IMG/VR virus record: IMGVR_UViG_3300035698_008626
Location: 1 to 36,832 of that record
Reading direction: 5' to 3' (one strand)
Source of the DNA: a virus
Length of the DNA: 36,832 bases
In this document: piece by piece, positions 3,650 through 33,939 of the stretch
Numbering within the stretch: the first letter of the stretch is position 1
Layout: each line of letters begins with the position of its first letter
Notes under the pieces: model-generated
The model's input: only the letters and a program-made list of their open reading frames with translations
Database searches by the model: none
Told to the model about the DNA's origin: nothing
Program-made: the position numbers and the translations under genes

Positions 3650-3904
3650 ATGGAAACCAGAGTTACGACCACGATCACGACGCGGACGCAAGAGATGGAG
3701 CTTGGCTACTGGGACGCCGATGATGAGGTATTCGTCCCGATTCAGGGCATGACGCCAGATGAGAAGAAAGAGGCCGCCGCCAAGCTGGGAATCTCTGAGC
3801 TACTGCTTGAGATGCTGGAATGGCTTGTAGAGAGCATGGCCGACGCGGTTAGCTCAGACCTAAGAAGCATCTGGCAAAGACTGGATCGTATCGAGGGGAA
3901 GTAG
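3650..3904 (+). CDS. Hypothetical acidic protein, 84 aa
   Basis: The start at 3650 has a GAAGGGAG site; an earlier in-frame ATG at 3599 would include the hairpin and lacks a site. The N-terminus TRVTTTITTRTQEMELGYWD looks like paired beta strands, followed by a helical, acidic C-terminal half (KLGISELLLEMLEWLVESM). No family recognised. Confidence 0.75.
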   Translation: METRVTTTITTRTQEMELGYWDADDEVFVPIQGMTPDEKKEAAAKLGISELLLEMLEWLVESMADAVSSDLRSIWQRLDRIEGK

Positions 3905-3910
3905 CACCAC

Positions 3911-3985
3911 CCTGCTCTGTCGCCCGTGATGGCTGAGGTTAGGTGCTACGGCGCGGCCTCCCAAGTCACACGGCGACGGAGCAGG
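3911..3985 (+). ncRNA. Long hairpin immediately upstream of tRNA-Thr
   Basis: CCTGCTCTGTCGCC (3911-3924) pairs with GGCGACGGAGCAGG (3972-3985) in a 14-bp stem with a single G-U pair. The 47-nt interior can fold further (GAGG 3935-3938 with CCTC 3957-3960). It ends 7 nt before the tRNA. It may be a processing element for the tRNA, or an independent small RNA. It lacks a T-arm and is not a tRNA. Confidence 0.45.
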
Positions 3986-3992
3986 CGAGCGA

Positions 3993-4063
3993 GCCCCTGT
4001 AGCACAGAGGTAGTGCTGCTGTTTTGTAATCAGCAGACTGTGGTTCGATTCCACACGGGGGCT
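3993..4063 (+). tRNA. tRNA-Thr (anticodon TGT)
   Basis: A full cloverleaf can be drawn. The acceptor is GCCCCTG/CGGGGGC (one T-G pair), the D-stem GCAC/GTGC, the anticodon loop TTTGTAA with TGT at 34-36, the T-arm TGTGG-TTCGATT-CCACA, and the discriminator T. The anticodon stem has a T-T mismatch at 31-39. CCA is not encoded. It resembles bacterial tRNA-Thr(UGU) and would decode ACA. It sits between two + strand genes inside the early row, so it must be cut from the mRNA or transcribed with it. Confidence 0.92.
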
Positions 4064-6399: not shown

Positions 6400-7334
6400 T
6401 AACAGCAACAAGATCGACTAGCGGCGGATCGATGGGCTGGATACTTTGCATTGGGGCCCTGCTCTTTGCGGCGGCGGTGCTTCTGCCCATGATGACGATG
6501 CCCGCCATGCAGATAGCAGAGAGGGCGGCGGTCAAGGCCCCCGCAGACATGACAGATGAGGAGCTAGAAAAGGCGATTGATGATGCGCTGGGGGCAGTTA
6601 CGAACGCAGAGGATGCCTACTGGAGAACAAGTGGCCGCGGCGGGCGCGAAATTGACGTCGCCCCTGCGCGCGAGCAGGCGTGGGCTAGCTACAACGAGCT
6701 AGTTAGCATATTGAGCGCGCGGCATAACCTAGCGCTTTGCGAGCTTGCAGCCAAGGCCCCCGCAGACATGGACGACGCCGAGTTGCGCGCCGAGCTAGAC
6801 CTTGCCGAGGTAGACGTGGTGGCGGCCTGGGAAGAGGGCAAGGTTGCGTGGGCAGCAGGCGATCAGGCCAGGCTTGACGCCGTAATTGCAGAGCGCCAAG
6901 CAGCCGACGGGCGGTACATCGCGGCTCACGAGGTGGCCACGGCGCGGGGGTGGTATAAGTGCGCCTATGCCAATGCGGAGATCGCCGAGATCGCAACGGG
7001 CTTGAAGGCGGCAGCGACTACCGGCCCTGTTGTGCTGATACCAGGACTTGAGACACCGGTGTACGTGTCGTGGTCACATATCGCAGAGCGGCACGGACTC
7101 GCGCCGTTTGATCTTCTGGCGAACGGGCCGAACCACAAGCGCGATTGCAAGGAAGGCAAGACCTACGTTTACAAGGCGGCAGGAAAGGGCAAGTACGTCC
7201 TGGGTATAGTATGGAATGGCGTTTTGGTCACCGTGTATGAGGTCACGCGGGACTTGCTTTACTACTACTTTTCCGTTGACGATTGCCCCAATCCATTGAA
7301 CGGGGGGCATGACGGCTTGAGCACGGTGTACTAG
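6396..7334 (+). CDS. Membrane-anchored protein with duplicated motif and C-terminal nuclease-like segment
   Basis: Start 6396 overlaps the upstream stop by ATGA; 312 residues. Residues 13-35 (WILCIGALLFAAAVLLPMM) form a membrane anchor. Two copies of a KAPADM-DEEL-type unit follow (about 45-60 and 124-140), each leading into a helical coil. The C-terminal 100 residues hold W-SHIAERH, two beta-rich segments and YVLGIVWNGVLVTVYEV. HI-x-x-RH followed by strands recalls phage barnase/ColE5/RelE-like (PBECR) nucleases, but this is only a motif impression. It precedes a lytic enzyme, so an envelope role is also possible. Confidence 0.75.
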   Translation: MITATRSTSGGSMGWILCIGALLFAAAVLLPMMTMPAMQIAERAAVKAPADMTDEELEKAIDDALGAVTNAEDAYWRTSGRGGREIDVAPAREQAWASYNELVSILSARHNLALCELAAKAPADMDDAELRAELDLAEVDVVAAWEEGKVAWAAGDQARLDAVIAERQAADGRYIAAHEVATARGWYKCAYANAEIAEIATGLKAAATTGPVVLIPGLETPVYVSWSHIAERHGLAPFDLLANGPNHKRDCKEGKTYVYKAAGKGKYVLGIVWNGVLVTVYEVTRDLLYYYFSVDDCPNPLNGGHDGLSTVY

Positions 7335-8713: not shown

Positions 8714-8796
8714 GCATCGAGCTAGACCAGCACAACGTGGACATCGGTAAGGGAAGAGTGGCACACGCACAATTGCAGCCGAGGCTAGGGCTATGA
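8710..8796 (+). CDS. Possible 28-codon microgene (GTG start)
   Basis: GTGA overlap with the upstream stop begins a 28-codon polar frame, whose stop overlaps a second tiny frame (ATG 8793 to TAA 8861) by ATGA. The second frame runs into the promoter at 8834. Only the overlap geometry supports these, so they may be chance. Confidence 0.25.
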   Translation: MSIELDQHNVDIGKGRVAHAQLQPRLGL

Positions 8797-8833
8797 CGCC
8801 GTGTGTGCCAACAGTACAAGGAAACCTTACAAT

Positions 8834-8862
8834 TTGCACACTTCGCGATTCTATGCTATAAT
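8834..8862 (+). promoter_or_regulatory. Extended -10 promoter of the first HNH unit
   Basis: TTGCAC (8834-8839), a 17-bp spacer, and TATAAT (8857-8862) preceded by TGC, the extended -10 form. It lies outside any firm gene and points at the pseudoknot leader and HNH frame at 9003. The promoter at 9920 has the same TGCTATAAT core. Confidence 0.8.
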
Positions 8863-8869
8863 GGTGGAC

Positions 8870-8985
8870 GTGGAGGATGCACAATGTCGTTCGAGAAAGG
8901 TTTTTCTATAATGAGGATACAGCCCCAGGGTCAAGGCGACAGCTTCCTCCACAAGAGGCAAGAACCTTTCCGCCCTGGGGCGTCC
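8870..8985 (+). ncRNA. Pseudoknot leader RNA, copy 1 (upstream of HNH frame)
   Basis: Helix A pairs GAAAGGTT (8895-8902) with AACCTTTC (8963-8970). Helix B pairs GCCCCAGGG (8922-8930) with CCCTGGGGC (8973-8981). The order A-B-A'-B' makes an H-type pseudoknot, with only 2 nt between A' and B'. A small CCTC/GAGG hairpin (8946-8958) lies in the long loop. Transcription would begin near 8869. The RNA ends shortly before TAGGAGCA, the ribosome site of the HNH frame. Copy 2 is at 9955. No known RNA family was recognised. Confidence 0.6.
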
Positions 8986-9002
8986 TATTGTAGGAGCACA
9001 AG

Positions 9003-9494
9003 ATGAAAGAGATACGATTAACGCGAGGCATGGCAACGCAAGTCGATGATGATATGTTCGACGGACTGAATTGATTCAAATGGTTTGCGCTGTCGTCGCA
9101 TGGCCTATGGTATGCGGCGCGGTCGGCTCCGTATGATATTGGCAGCAAGCGATCTCTAATTCTCATGCACAGAATCATTATGAACGCACAGCCAGGGCAG
9201 TTAGTAGATCATCGCAACCGAAGGGGCCTGGACAACCAGCGGGAGAACTTACGCTTTTGTACGAGAAGCCAGAATCAGATGAATAGAAAGAAGCAGACGG
9301 GCTGCTCATCACGGTGGAAGGGCGTAAGCTGGAATAAACAAGCGGGGAGATGGAAGGCATGTGTCTGGGCACATAACAAATATCTCTATCTTGGCTATTT
9401 CGACGACGAGATCGAAGCCGCGCTTGCATATAACGCCGCTGCTACTGAGCACTTCCGCGAATTCGCACGGCTGAATGTAATAGAGGGAGTATGA
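9003..9494 (+). pseudogene. AP2/HNH homing endonuclease interrupted by an in-frame TGA
   Basis: From ATG 9003 (site TAGGAG) the frame reads MKEIRLTRGMATQVDDD, matching the intact sibling at 33463 (MKEIPLTQGKVALVDDA). Codon 24 is TGA (9072-9074). After it the frame continues with FKWFAL, the HNH core (MHRIIMNAQPGQLVDHRNRRGLDNQ, shown here as residues from ATG 9165) and an AP2-like DNA-binding end (KGVSWNKQAGRWKA, LGYFDDEIEAALAYNAAA). Either the N-terminal part is lost, or TGA is read through. ATG 9165 lacks a ribosome site. Other genes here use TGA as stop. Confidence 0.8.
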
Positions 9495-9495
9495 C

Positions 9496-9690
9496 ATGAA
9501 ATCAACGACCGTCCGCATCACAAAGGCCAAGAGGCCAACCTATTGGTATGCTGACAAAGTCGGCGAGAGCTTCGAGGTCTACCCGGGCGACAAGGATTCG
9601 TTTGTTCTCAAAGAGGATAAAGACCGAGGCGGCTATCCCATTCATCACATCCAGCGCCGAGACTGCGAGGAGATAGAGGAGGAGACGTGA
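9496..9690 (+). CDS. Hypothetical protein, 64 aa
   Basis: GAGGGAGTATGAC precedes ATG 9496, directly after the HNH frame. The protein has a PTYWYADKVGESFEVYPG core, reminiscent of small SH3-like or beta-barrel phage proteins, and an acidic end. No firm family. Confidence 0.75.
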   Translation: MKSTTVRITKAKRPTYWYADKVGESFEVYPGDKDSFVLKEDKDRGGYPIHHIQRRDCEEIEEET

Positions 9691-9947
9691 TCTGGTTCAC
9701 AGGCAAAGACGGGGCAACGTACACCTATTGCGACTTTACCCTCAAGGACATCACCGAGGGCCATCTGAATAAGGATGGCGATAGGCTCTATATGTCCTCA
9801 GACCTCGGCGTTGTCGCAATAGACCCAGAGACGATCAAGCTGGGCCGGACGCCATCGCCGCCATTGCCGGGGTTAGACGGGCGCGAGATAATGCAGAGGA
9901 TGACGCACGAATATCCGACTTGGCGAAATAGAGAAGGCGTGCTATAA
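9687..9947 (+). CDS. Hypothetical protein, 86 aa (GTG start)
   Basis: GTGA overlap with the upstream stop and a GAGGAGGAGAC site support the GTG start. The protein is polar with beta-like segments (WFTGKDGATYTYCDF, YMSSDLGVVAID). Its last codons overlap the promoter at 9920, so the replication promoter is embedded in this gene. Confidence 0.7.
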   Translation: MIWFTGKDGATYTYCDFTLKDITEGHLNKDGDRLYMSSDLGVVAIDPETIKLGRTPSPPLPGLDGREIMQRMTHEYPTWRNREGVL

Positions 9948-9948
9948 T
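9920..9948 (+). promoter_or_regulatory. Extended -10 promoter of the replication unit
   Basis: TTGGCG (9920-9925), a 17-bp spacer, and TATAAT (9943-9948) with the TGC extension. Transcription would start near 9955, right at helix A of the pseudoknot. It would drive the replication genes from 10076 unless stopped at the terminator inside the leader. Confidence 0.8.
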
Positions 9949-9954
9949 AGGGGC

Positions 9955-10058
9955 GCGAAAGGCCAATAGTCTGAGGGGAGAACTTTCATGGCAACAAACC
10001 GGTCACGGTCAACAGGCTGGCCTTTCGCAATGCCAACCTCCCGCCGTGACCGGTTTTT
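9955..10058 (+). ncRNA. Pseudoknot leader or small RNA, copy 2, ending in a terminator
   Basis: Helix A pairs GCGAAAGGCCA (9955-9965) with TGGCCTTTCGC (10018-10028), 11 bp with no mismatch. Helix B pairs 9996-10008 with 10044-10056, 13 bp with no mismatch. The A-B-A'-B' order is an H-type pseudoknot. It shares with copy 1 the GAAAGG/CCTTTC core, a GTCAA after the 5' arm of B, and a nearly identical TGTAGGAGCA site after it. It could be a discrete 104-nt RNA or an attenuator for the replication genes. Confidence 0.65.
9996..10058 (+). terminator. Intrinsic terminator within the pseudoknot leader
   Basis: A 13-bp perfect stem (AAACCGGTCACGG with CCGTGACCGGTTT), a 35-nt loop and a T-tract at 10054-10058. 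Because helix A uses part of the loop, termination could be tuned by pseudoknot folding (inference). The next gene starts 18 nt after the T-tract. Confidence 0.7.
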
Positions 10059-10075
10059 GCATGTAGGAGCAAGAT

Positions 10076-10591
10076 ATGGCATGGGTTAAGCTCGATGACC
10101 AATTCTCAACCAACGGCAAGATATTGGCGGCCAGCAAGGACGGGCGCGAGTCGTACTTTAGCGCACTTGGGCATTGCGCGCGCAATCTCACAGATGGATT
10201 TGTTGACGCCGAGTTGGTAAGACAGATCGGCGCATTGTTTGAGGTCTACGATGTGGAGCCCGCCGTCACCAAGCTGCTTGATGTTGGCCTTTGGGAAAGG
10301 GTAGAGGGCGGCTATCAGATTGCAGACCGGCCCAGTTATAGCATTTGCCCCAACAGAACAACCCAAGAGGAACGCAAGACGCAAGACTACAGGCGATGGC
10401 GCAAGGCAGTGCTCAAGCGCGATAATCACACATGCCAATCTTGTGGCGCAACCACCGGGCAGTTTCATGCACATCATATCCTGCCCTGGGCAACGAATCC
10501 GGCAACGCGATATAAGGTAAGCAATGGCCTTACGCTGTGCGTGGATTGCCACAAGGAGATCCACTATGGGGTTAGTAGGAATACAGTATGA
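10076..10591 (+). CDS. Replication-initiator-type winged helix fused to an HNH endonuclease domain
   Basis: GTAGGAGCA precedes the ATG; 171 residues. Residues 1-90 match the N-terminal domain common in phage replication initiators (MAWVKLDDQFSTNGKI, ALGHCARNLTDGFVDAELV, LLDVGLWERVEGGYQI). Residues 100-165 are an HNH nuclease: WRKAVLKRDNHTCQSCG, HAHHILPW, NGLTLCVDCHKEIHYG. The normal C-terminal part of the initiator is absent and is replaced by HNH. The next gene also begins with an initiator-like winged helix, so this may be an HNH insertion into a duplicated initiator. It follows pseudoknot RNA copy 2. Confidence 0.8.
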   Translation: MAWVKLDDQFSTNGKILAASKDGRESYFSALGHCARNLTDGFVDAELVRQIGALFEVYDVEPAVTKLLDVGLWERVEGGYQIADRPSYSICPNRTTQEERKTQDYRRWRKAVLKRDNHTCQSCGATTGQFHAHHILPWATNPATRYKVSNGLTLCVDCHKEIHYGVSRNTV

Positions 10592-11454
10592 AAACCTGGG
10601 TCAAGTTCTACACCAAGACATTACGGGATCCCGACATGGCATCGCTCTCATGGGCGCAGCGCGGCATTTGGAGCGCGTTGCTGGCCCTGGCGGGGGACTT
10701 GGATCACAGGGATGGTGAGGACAACGAGACGGGAGAGCTTGATACGCTCTCCCGTGTTGCGTGGCATATCAGGTGCGACGAACTAGAGCTTGAGACGGCG
10801 CTCCAAGAATTCGCGTCTCGGGGTATGGTAGATGAGCGCGATGGCATCTTGTTCGTTACCAACTACGGCAAGCTCCAATCTCGCGCCCCGAGCGCCAAGC
10901 GCGACGCCGTTGCAGAGAGGGTGAAACGACATCGAGAGAAAAAGCAACGAGTGAGTAACGAGGATGTAACGACGTTACAAAAAAATGTAACGCCGCGTAA
11001 CGCCACCAGAGTCAGAGTAGATACAGAGAAGAAGAGAGTAGAAGCAGAAATAGATCCCCCCCCCGTCGCCAACCGATTAGCGGCCCATCTATTCGGCGAG
11101 TTATTGCCTAAAGCAGACGTACACCCCACGGGCACAATGAGTGACCTATACCTGGACACCCTTAGGCTACTCAATGGAGTGGCAGAGCCCATAGCCCTAT
11201 TAGACGCCGCCTTTGTAGAGGCTGCAAAGCGCAGCAGTCGGCCAACCCCTGGCTGGCTGGACACAACGATCAAGCGTTGCGTAGATCAAAAGTGTATGCC
11301 CGGCGTCTGGCCTGATAGTGGAACGGCCCGCGCCTCGCCGGCAGATCAAGCAAAACTAGAGGCGGCACAGGCCGCCCTGGAGTCGGCGGAACTCGTAATC
11401 CCGCTTTTCGAGCCGGTGCCGGAGAAGCATGAACAACCTACAGCCACCTCATAA
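10588..11454 (+). CDS. DnaD-like replication initiator / replisome organiser
   Basis: ATGA overlap with the HNH fusion; 288 residues. The N-terminus (MKTWVKFYTKTLRDPDMASLSWAQRG) and a winged-helix body to about 100 are typical of phage initiator proteins that load DnaB. A charged linker (100-150) with KRDAVAERVKRHREKKQ joins a C-terminal helical domain (YLDTLRLLNG to TPGWLDTTIKRCVDQ) like DnaD-type domains. Direct adjacency to the DnaB-type helicase supports the role. Exact subfamily is inferred. Confidence 0.75.
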   Translation: MKTWVKFYTKTLRDPDMASLSWAQRGIWSALLALAGDLDHRDGEDNETGELDTLSRVAWHIRCDELELETALQEFASRGMVDERDGILFVTNYGKLQSRAPSAKRDAVAERVKRHREKKQRVSNEDVTTLQKNVTPRNATRVRVDTEKKRVEAEIDPPPVANRLAAHLFGELLPKADVHPTGTMSDLYLDTLRLLNGVAEPIALLDAAFVEAAKRSSRPTPGWLDTTIKRCVDQKCMPGVWPDSGTARASPADQAKLEAAQAALESAELVIPLFEPVPEKHEQPTATS

Positions 11455-18887: not shown

Positions 18888-19150
18888 ATACCCGCAAGCA
18901 ACGGTTCACTATTACCAAGGAAGAATTGACTGAAGGAGTTTTTGCCGTGACGCTGTTCATTCGGGCGGGCTATATCGCATCTCGCAGTGAGGGCTATAGA
19001 CTCATTAGGCAGGGCGGCTTGTATATCAACAGCAAGCAGCTACATGATCGCGCGTACAAGGTAACGGTTGGGGACGTGATAGATGGGATCGTTGAGGTGC
19101 GCGTGGGCCGATGGAAGAAGATGCGAGAATTCAGGGTATGCTTGACATAG
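18875..19150 (+). CDS. S4-domain RNA-binding protein, 91 aa
   Basis: Residues 22-75 have the S4 fold pattern: VTLFIRAGYIASRSEGYRLI, RQGGLYINSKQL, VGDVIDG. S4 domains bind structured RNA in ribosomal S4, TyrRS and RluD-type enzymes. Here the domain stands alone. Its gene ends on top of a promoter that transcribes a large structured leader, so an RNA partner may be next door (inference). Confidence 0.8.
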   Translation: MADIDTRKQRFTITKEELTEGVFAVTLFIRAGYIASRSEGYRLIRQGGLYINSKQLHDRAYKVTVGDVIDGIVEVRVGRWKKMREFRVCLT

Positions 19151-19170
19151 GCCGTCTAATCGTGTACAAT
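19142..19170 (+). promoter_or_regulatory. Late (packaging) sigma70-type promoter
   Basis: TTGACA (19142-19147), a 17-bp spacer, and TACAAT (19165-19170). It overlaps the last codons of the S4 gene and precedes the structured leader and all packaging/head genes. Confidence 0.85.
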
Positions 19171-19176
19171 GGATGT

Positions 19177-19503
19177 GCGACTGGGAGGGCTGCCCTATAT
19201 ATCGCGGCTCGCTGAGGAAACTCACCTGGTTGCAGGACATGCGCGTTGCTGCATACTTGCCGCTTTAAGGGCCGAGACGATCCCGCCGCGCTATGCAGAG
19301 CAGTAGGCGGGCAACGTGAAGCACCGTGACCAGGCAGCCTCTCAGTTGGGGGCCTGGTGCATGTCTAGCGTGCGGGTCAGGCAGGGAAGTACCCTACGGC
19401 GCTTTGCTAAAGAGCATCAGCTAGCTTTTGCTAGCCGGATCGTAGAGGCTGCGGCCCGCACGCGATAGAATTTACCGCCAGCGGTAGAATTGGGAGCTGA
19501 TAG
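19177..19503 (+). ncRNA. Large structured leader RNA before the packaging genes
   Basis: There are about 330 untranslated bases with many helices. They include AGGG/CCCT 19186-19196, TGAG-GAAA-CTCA tetraloop hairpin 19213-19224, TGCAG/CTGCA 19231-19253, CCCGCC/GGCGGG 19282-19311, and ACCAGGC/GCCTGGT 19329-19358. A 9-bp GCGTGCGGG/CCCGCACGC stem (19368-19376 with 19455-19463) closes a three-hairpin domain, including GCTAGC-TTTT-GCTAGC (19420-19435). No terminator follows, so it is the 5' leader of the late transcript and/or a processed RNA. No known class was recognised. Confidence 0.6.
19473..19486. repeat. Dispersed palindrome, copy 3
   Basis: TACCGCCAGCGGTA, perfect apart from the central base pair being A/G rather than C/G; the arms are exact. 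It lies 18 bases before the start codon at 19504, at the 3' end of the structured leader. Confidence 0.55.
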
Positions 19504-33357: not shown

Positions 33358-33462
33358 ACGTGCGATGCAGCTCTATGCTCTGCCTAGGGTCGCTCCCGAA
33401 AAGCGGACATCCTTACCGCCTGGCAGAGTCTCGTTAGAGGAGTGATGAGAGGAGATCACGCC
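33358..33462 (+). ncRNA. Structured leader of the AP2-HNH gene
   Basis: CTCTGCC (33378-33384) pairs with GGCAGAG (33422-33428), enclosing GCGG/CCGC and GTC-type hairpins. A second hairpin GTGAT/ATCAC (33442-33446 with 33455-33459) holds the ribosome site GAGAGGA in its loop, just before ATG 33463. This could limit or tune endonuclease synthesis. It is not clearly homologous to the pseudoknot leaders at 8870 and 9955. Confidence 0.5.
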
Positions 33463-33939
33463 ATGAAAGAGATCCCGCTGACTCAGGGCAAGGTCGCCCT
33501 GGTAGACGATGCTGATTACGAGTGGTTGCGCCTGTGGAAGTGGTATGCCGCTTATAGTGACGGAAAGTGGTACGCCAAACGGAATGATCGCACTAACGGT
33601 AAGAAAAGCATAGTTAGAATGCACCGTCAGATAATGGGCGCGCAGCCAGGACAAGAGATAGACCATCAAGACGGGTTTGGCTTACACAACTGGCGAGCAA
33701 ATCTGCGCTTTTGTACAAGTTCACAGAACAAGGCGAATAGTCGGAAACGAGCGGGCTGTTCATCTAAGCATAAGGGCGTTTGTTGGGACAAGGAACGGGG
33801 CAAGTGGATGGCATATATTGATATGCATGGCAAGCGAACCAACCTTGGCCGATTTGAGAGCGAGATTGAGGCGGCACTAGCTTATAATCATGCCGCACCA
33901 GAACACCACGGCGAGTTTGCGCGGCTAAACGCACTGTAA
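33463..33939 (+). CDS. AP2/HNH homing endonuclease, intact copy
   Basis: 158 residues. The N-terminal part MKEIPLTQGKVALVDDADYEWL and LWKWYAAY is the usual beta-rich lead. The HNH core is MHRQIMGAQPGQEIDHQDGF with NWRANLRFCTSSQNKAN. The C-terminal AP2-like DNA-binding part is KGVCWDKERGKWMAYIDMHG and LGRFESEIEAALAYNHAA. It is the intact sibling of the frame at 9003. Own promoter and terminator show it to be a selfish, independently expressed unit. Confidence 0.9.
   Translation: MKEIPLTQGKVALVDDADYEWLRLWKWYAAYSDGKWYAKRNDRTNGKKSIVRMHRQIMGAQPGQEIDHQDGFGLHNWRANLRFCTSSQNKANSRKRAGCSSKHKGVCWDKERGKWMAYIDMHGKRTNLGRFESEIEAALAYNHAAPEHHGEFARLNAL

Follow-up and report, generated by a model that had tools for sequence, protein, structure and literature searches.

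A candidate class of phage leader RNAs in which crossing helices of variable sequence lie between a promoter and a ribosome site

Two transcription units in a viral genome begin with leader RNAs that, on balance, probably belong to an undescribed and widespread class of phage leaders, in which only the topology (H-type or ABCABC pseudoknot) is conserved and which would act as a self-contained switch of gene expression; the sequence of these leaders changes freely, while they remain fused to the start of a promoter and to a ribosome site and are carried on mobile as well as early phage genes. The window that was analysed is a 36,832-base IMG/VR virus record. The two units noted in a preliminary description of this DNA, each consisting of a sigma-70-type promoter with a 17-bp spacer, an A-B-A'-B' pseudoknot, a Shine-Dalgarno (SD) sequence and an ATG codon, were both found to be real. 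The exact sequence TGCTATAAT occurs at only two sites in the window, which are these two promoters, and the sequence TGTAGGAGCA is identical in the two copies. The motifs GAAAGG/CCTTTC and GTCAA, which had been reported as shared, are indeed present in both copies but they are not retained across the wider family described below.

In copy 2, which is the simpler of the two, the promoter (TTGGCG and TATAAT; positions 9920–9948, plus strand, as for all features of both leaders) has a predicted transcription start at about 9955. The 5' arm of helix A1 (GCGAAAGGCCA, 9955–9965) starts at this base and its partner TGGCCTTTCGC lies at 10018–10028, whereas a weak helix A2 is formed by GTCTG (9969–9973) and CAGGC (10013–10017). 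Helix B pairs AAACCGGTCACGG (9996–10008) with CCGTGACCGGTTT (10044–10056), and at its base there is a terminator-like U-run (10054–10058), identified from the sequence and from the family-wide enrichment of U, which is followed by the SD sequence AGGAG at 10065–10069. Upon rechecking the sequence, helices A1 and B were confirmed to be of 11 and 13 bp and free of mismatches. With the transcript start fixed, the combined score of A and B is 63 in comparison to a maximum of 44.5 in dinucleotide shuffles (reached in 0 of 1000), and copy 2 is also an outlier relative to shuffled windows when the start is not constrained. Based upon duplex energy, a further helix C is possible between 9976–9993 (GGGAG, 9976–9980, and TGGCA, 9989–9993) and the segments TGCCA (10031–10035) and CTCCC (10038–10042), which taken alone is not significant (p 0.38, shuffle test).

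The leader of copy 1 proved to be more complex than had been described. Its promoter (TTGCAC and TATAAT, 8834–8862; predicted start at about 8869), pseudoknot, SD sequence (AGGAG, 8992–8996) and ATG are real, and the two helices of 8 and 9 bp that had been noted are mismatch-free as claimed, but the helix at the transcription start had been missed. This helix, A1, begins 7 nt past the -10 box and pairs GTGGAGGA (8870–8877) with TCCTCCAC (8945–8952); nested within it is helix A2 (TGTCG, 8885–8889, with CGACA, 8937–8941). The helix that was previously designated as A (GAAAGGTT/AACCTTTC), which has 11 pairs once G-U pairing is allowed, is thus not the first helix but the middle one, a third crossing helix C, in which GAAAGGTTTTT (8895–8905) pairs with AAGAACCTTTC (8960–8970). 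Helix B is formed by GCCCCAGGG (8922–8930) and CCCTGGGGC (8973–8981), and copy 1 therefore contains three mutually crossing helices in the order A C B A' C' B'. When all three are counted, the score of 70.5 compares with a maximum of 53.5, and the score of 47.0 for A and B exceeds by a narrow margin the shuffle maximum of 46.5 (each 0 of 1000 dinucleotide shuffles, transcript start fixed); helix C by itself was matched in 0 of 200 shuffles. As the two helices noted initially score near the best shuffled windows when no start constraint is applied, the case for copy 1 depends upon the third helix and upon its homologues. In a pseudoknot-free (nested) fold of copy 1 helix B extends across the SD sequence, and sequestration of this site is possible according to this predicted structure.

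To identify related leaders, we collected viral contigs with genes related to the HNH-AP2 gene that follows copy 1, together with matches to a DNA pattern for the start of this gene, and read the upstream DNA. About 30 further units were found in this manner, in phage contigs and in two bacterial metagenome bins (two on one contig of G019, L251/L264, and one in G087, L256), so that the RNA recurs well beyond the two original copies. In many relatives (e.g., L108, L138, L161, L179, and L183) the same layout is present in unrelated sequence; the unit in L131 has the helices TGCGATGCAGT/ACTGCATCGCA and CCAGCCAGGG/CCTTGGCTGG, and those in L153 and L098 have helices of 16 and 14 bp and of 15 and 15 bp, respectively. 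A detector, designed on the first examples and requiring crossing helices with a promoter ahead of A, and with an SD sequence and open reading frame (ORF) behind B', was then applied to 19 phage contigs, covered completely or for the most part, and identified 26 units versus 0.5 in shuffled sequence (score at least 44, promoter match at least 8 of 12, SD and ORF). With fixed strict settings, applied to all loci fetched by then, 30 non-redundant units were obtained in comparison to 2 in shuffled sequence; one of the 30, L007, is GC-rich with a poor promoter and looks like a false positive. These settings yielded 23 units in 19 phages, and none on either strand of eight named phage or plasmid control records (545 kb); up to four units are present in a single phage. 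Copy 1 does not pass the strict settings, since C intervenes between its helices A and B.

A direct DNA search of the region containing the two copies against phage records gave no match, a comparison of the leader sequences with named phages gave no relevant match, and no cultured phage with such a unit was found. An RNA-first pattern for the G012/G017 subfamily recovered only that subfamily. The model R1, built upon the nested part of the alignable subfamily treated below, retrieved its members and one independent member (G009_45704, E 4e-7); in genomes it gave one strong match, the already-known L256, and other matches that were weak (E at least 0.035), and it did not reach copies 1 and 2. 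Against the 4227 families of Rfam 15 neither copy scored above a gathering threshold, nor did the pseudoknot leaders in L067–L077, L108, and L183, and those of L226, L256, L271, L272, and L251 had no Rfam match up to an E of 1. As sequence is not conserved in this RNA, it is missed by Rfam and covariance-model searches, which rely upon sequence and nested structure. The delta-type (HDV-like) ribozyme, whose helices also follow an A-B-A'-B' order with a 7-bp P1 and a catalytic P4/J4-2 region, was considered and rejected: there is no Rfam match, helix A is 8–19 bp in length, and many members have no room for P4 because the gap between A' and B' is only 0–1 nt.

Although the helix sequences of different units are unrelated, their layout is fixed. 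The distance from the -10 box to helix A is mostly 4–8 nt, which places the start of this helix at about +1, and the end of B' is mostly 15–22 nt from the ATG; both copies in the window share the promoter, a helix A at +1, the crossing of A and B, and a B' that ends about 15–25 nt before the ATG. U accounts for 58% of the 6 nt after B' and for 26% of the rest of the RNA body, a contrast reached in 0 of 5000 resamplings, and the U-run, which most members possess, adjoins B' even where the SD sequence is farther off (L164, L185, G006_29982, and G014_24894). Two subtypes can be distinguished. Members of subtype I have the order A C B A' C' B' and a long A'-B' linker, and frequently A1 encloses a helix A2 and C is preceded by a U-tract; they comprise copy 1, G001_32219, G008_40977, G014_19744, G014_24894/L271, G015_37954, and probably G015_13600, with shuffle p values for helix C between <0.005 and 0.105. 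In subtype II (A B A' B') the A'-B' gap is 0–5 nt, and one subfamily has a hairpin between B and A'. Long crossing helices joined by very short linkers (e.g., 1 and 1 nt in G017_32257) may be sterically impossible together, and A and B may instead be competing alternatives in some members. Sequestration of the SD sequence is rejected as a general rule, and this site is left open in most members. However, a built-in switch that sequesters the site is possible in two leaders, the minus-strand unit of L183 near 9963 and the unit of L189 that precedes the gene at 7002. Here the sequence of the 5' arm of helix A recurs in the SD region (TGTCGAGGGAGG and GGAGTTCGACC, respectively), which would offer A' two alternative partners, A and the SD region.

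Compensatory changes of the kind suggested by helix B of the two copies were found in one alignable subfamily, where both crossing helices covary. The set examined comprised five alignable subtype II leaders that were obtained from gene-start searches and not from a structure search. In these leaders 96.3% of the cells are paired, and both-side changes are present in 15 of the 27 pairs (6 in A and 8 in B); the covariation score was reached in 0 of 500 shuffles and it is destroyed by sliding the alignment one column. Between G012_41658 and G017_40529 the few changes at helix positions all preserve pairing, two of them being compensatory. L270 and L271 were collected because they encode relatives of one replication-module protein. 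Their leaders are homologous and retain all of A1, A2, C, and B, in different bases; the arms were not aligned by MAFFT and this pairing was read by eye. These two phages are related, and the C-terminal part of their replication-module protein is 94% identical, whereas its N-terminal part has been swapped.

Each copy had been described as lying upstream of an HNH reading frame. Such frames are indeed present at 9003 and 10076, but the second is not a free-standing HNH gene. The gene behind copy 1 (9003–9494, plus strand) is of the HNH-AP2 homing-endonuclease type, and it is interrupted by an in-frame TGA at 9072–9074, where it reads LN*FKW in place of the LNQWKW and LSRFKW of its relatives; it is probably a dead, inactive homing endonuclease. 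The first gene behind copy 2 (10076–10591, plus strand) combines a replication-type N-terminal part with an HNH domain (PF01844), and it is followed by a further gene at 10588 and by a DnaB helicase gene at 11429. The encoded protein belongs to a replication module and carries the HNH domain as its tail, and copy 2 leads a replication operon. The N-terminal relatives of this protein are found in operons that lack such a leader, and therefore no homologous RNA was obtained from them.

Across the family, HNH-AP2 genes follow many of the units. This preponderance results at least in part from the search having begun at HNH-AP2 genes, and other units precede genes with HNH (G001_682), Endonuclease_7 (G002_12588), T5orf172 (G014_19744 and G015_37954), or N6_N4_Mtase (G006_29982) domains in Pfam, as well as genes of unassigned function. 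Three downstream genes without a Pfam match (G009_42376, G014_24894, and L271) appear to encode replication proteins, as judged from their N-terminal pattern and setting. Conversely, the HNH-AP2 genes that directly adjoin or overlap a preceding gene lack a pseudoknot unit in the upstream regions that were read, and those of named phages lie within operons with no leader. The association with HNH genes is thus frequent but not exclusive, and in view of the variety of downstream genes the unit is better regarded as a leader of phage genes that are transcribed on their own. The suggestion that the RNA assists the HNH nuclease encoded behind it as a partner or guide, in the manner of HEARO/IscB, draws upon the many HNH-AP2 genes among these, yet it is largely refuted and we regard it as highly improbable: the same unit stands before the methylase, Endonuclease VII, T5orf172, replication, and unassigned genes, copy 2 among them leading a replication operon, HNH-AP2 genes exist without it, and the link is inflated by the way the search was seeded. 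There is also no covariance match to HEARO, and the proteins downstream of the two copies (HNH-AP2 and replication-type plus HNH) contain no RuvC domain in Pfam, which agrees with the earlier statement that they are not IscB.

The structure, recurrence, position and U-run of these leaders and the covariation in one subfamily were observed directly; termination, its control, and the direction of its effect are inferred. The reading that we favor, tentatively and at somewhat less than even probability, is that both copies are cis-acting leader RNAs which serve as conditional terminators (attenuators) built upon a pseudoknot. Upon firing of the single-gene or operon promoter, helix A would start with the first transcribed base, and its partner strand would be made only after the 5' arm of B (in one subtype also that of C). 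As the 3' arms follow the order of the 5' arms (A-B-A'-B' or A-C-B-A'-C'-B'), every helix would cross the others, and helix B would be the last to close, usually right before the U-run and with the SD sequence and ATG within about 20 nt. Once A (and C) had formed, B could form at the RNA exit and the polymerase would be stopped or slowed before the gene, which would be read only if co-transcriptional folding or a pseudoknot-binding factor prevented B. This reading is favored because the U-run lies at the last-formed helix and stays with B', and because of the position between promoter and gene. A GC-rich stem directly followed by a U-run is seen in the family and in copy 2, as the initial suggestion of an attenuator implied, but copy 1 lacks a clear U-run, as do G010_17008 and G012_28586. 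The loops of 20–60 nt are also long for an intrinsic terminator, and the U-rich stretch before the SD sequence could instead serve ribosomal protein S1.

The last point leads to a different and distinctly less probable reading, in which the leader armors the 5' end and enhances translation. The fully paired 5' end would resist 5'-end-dependent decay, and a rigid knot bordering the ribosome footprint, with a U-rich S1 site before the SD sequence, would allow the gene to be well expressed from its own promoter. The start of helix A at +1, the usual position of the end of B' 15–22 nt before the ATG, the open SD sequence in most members and the retention of shape without sequence all suit this explanation, but where B' and the SD sequence are separated the U-run tracks B', and long B helices with U-runs appear costly for an enhancer. 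We consider it unlikely that the knot is an operator, autogenous or phage-wide, recognized by a phage protein that represses translation or transcription as in T4 gene 32. A common regulator would suit the presence of several units before different genes in one phage, and translational control by a phage pseudoknot has a precedent (PMC3014915); however, the units within one phage share almost no sequence, so that a regulator would have to recognize nothing but their shape, and no candidate protein was identified. Still more doubtful is a stand-alone small RNA that extends from the promoter to the U-run and acts in trans, with the gene behind it expressed by read-through only; both of its ends would be closed (5' in helix A, 3' in helix B and the U-run), but the spacing to the SD sequence and ATG is constant, and there is no single-stranded sequence conserved family-wide.

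Returning to the conditional terminator, the leaders resemble intrinsic-terminator attenuators in having a GC-rich stem with a U-run directly after it between promoter and gene, but here this stem comes last among the several helices of a pseudoknot and has a loop of 20–60 nt, and there is no evident competing antiterminator arm. The mRNA of gene 32 of phages T4/T2 carries a pseudoknot 67 nt upstream of the start codon, which nucleates the binding of gp32 and was considered in 2010 to be possibly the only viral pseudoknot with a role in translational autoregulation (PMC3014915). It is likewise a 5' leader pseudoknot that lies upstream of the SD sequence and regulates its gene (PMC3014915), but it serves one gene in one phage group, whereas the leaders described here precede many genes, have a U-run, and have long helices that abut the SD region. 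RNA structures are also present at the ribosome sites of homing endonuclease genes of T4 and Aeh1 (I-TevI, segB, and mobE; seg43(25)), the hairpin of seg43(25) lying just upstream of an open ribosome-binding site (PMC2988022). These resemble the new leaders in location, but they are simple hairpins that mostly hide the ribosome-binding site, with neither a pseudoknot nor a fused sigma-70 promoter of their own.

The window also contains other structured RNAs. The only match to int-alpA RNA at gathering score (RF02996, 51.7 bits) lies at 33377–33441, with its own promoter upstream; the other HNH-AP2 gene of the window (33463–33939) follows directly, and its RNA is different from those of copies 1 and 2. 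Like the new leaders, int-alpA is a structured RNA between the promoter and SD sequence of phage HNH-AP2 genes, but it has a nested multi-stem fold and a conserved sequence (TAGGG...CCCGAA), and it has no match in 8780–10120 even at E values up to 5. It also precedes an HNH-AP2 gene in L124, with look-alikes in L095, L074, L136, L149, L162, L165, L168, and L123. In some cases a loop of this RNA appears complementary to the SD region, a pairing that gained no support from a shuffle test in the cases scored. A DUF3800-VI RNA (RF02915) is located at 19178–19232 (region 19141–19480), directly after a promoter of the form TTGACA-17-TACAAT, and beyond it lie some 240 nt that appear not to code for protein. 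Lastly, another strong A-B-A'-B' arrangement (GTAGCACC/GGTGCTAC and CCTGCTCTGTCGCC/GGCGACGGAGCAGG), with no obvious promoter, is present at 3902–3985 directly upstream of a tRNA gene (3993–4063).

The topology of subtype I, with three helices whose 5' arms (A, C, B) and 3' arms follow the same order, corresponds to the ABCABC or "pseudotrefoil" arrangement, which is known but rare; it was named in a study whose data set included 51 sequences (PMC3390330). In a partial coverage of the literature we found no report of ABCABC as a recurring phage leader, and within the same coverage no publication describing this leader RNA, so that an earlier description is possible. If these leaders are attenuators, they would represent a general, knot-shaped means of gating single phage genes, including those for homing endonucleases, whose unchecked production would do harm. 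They would also supply RNA biology with a set of naturally occurring ABCABC pseudoknots, realized in dozens of independent sequences, that should be useful for work on pseudoknot prediction and co-transcriptional folding.
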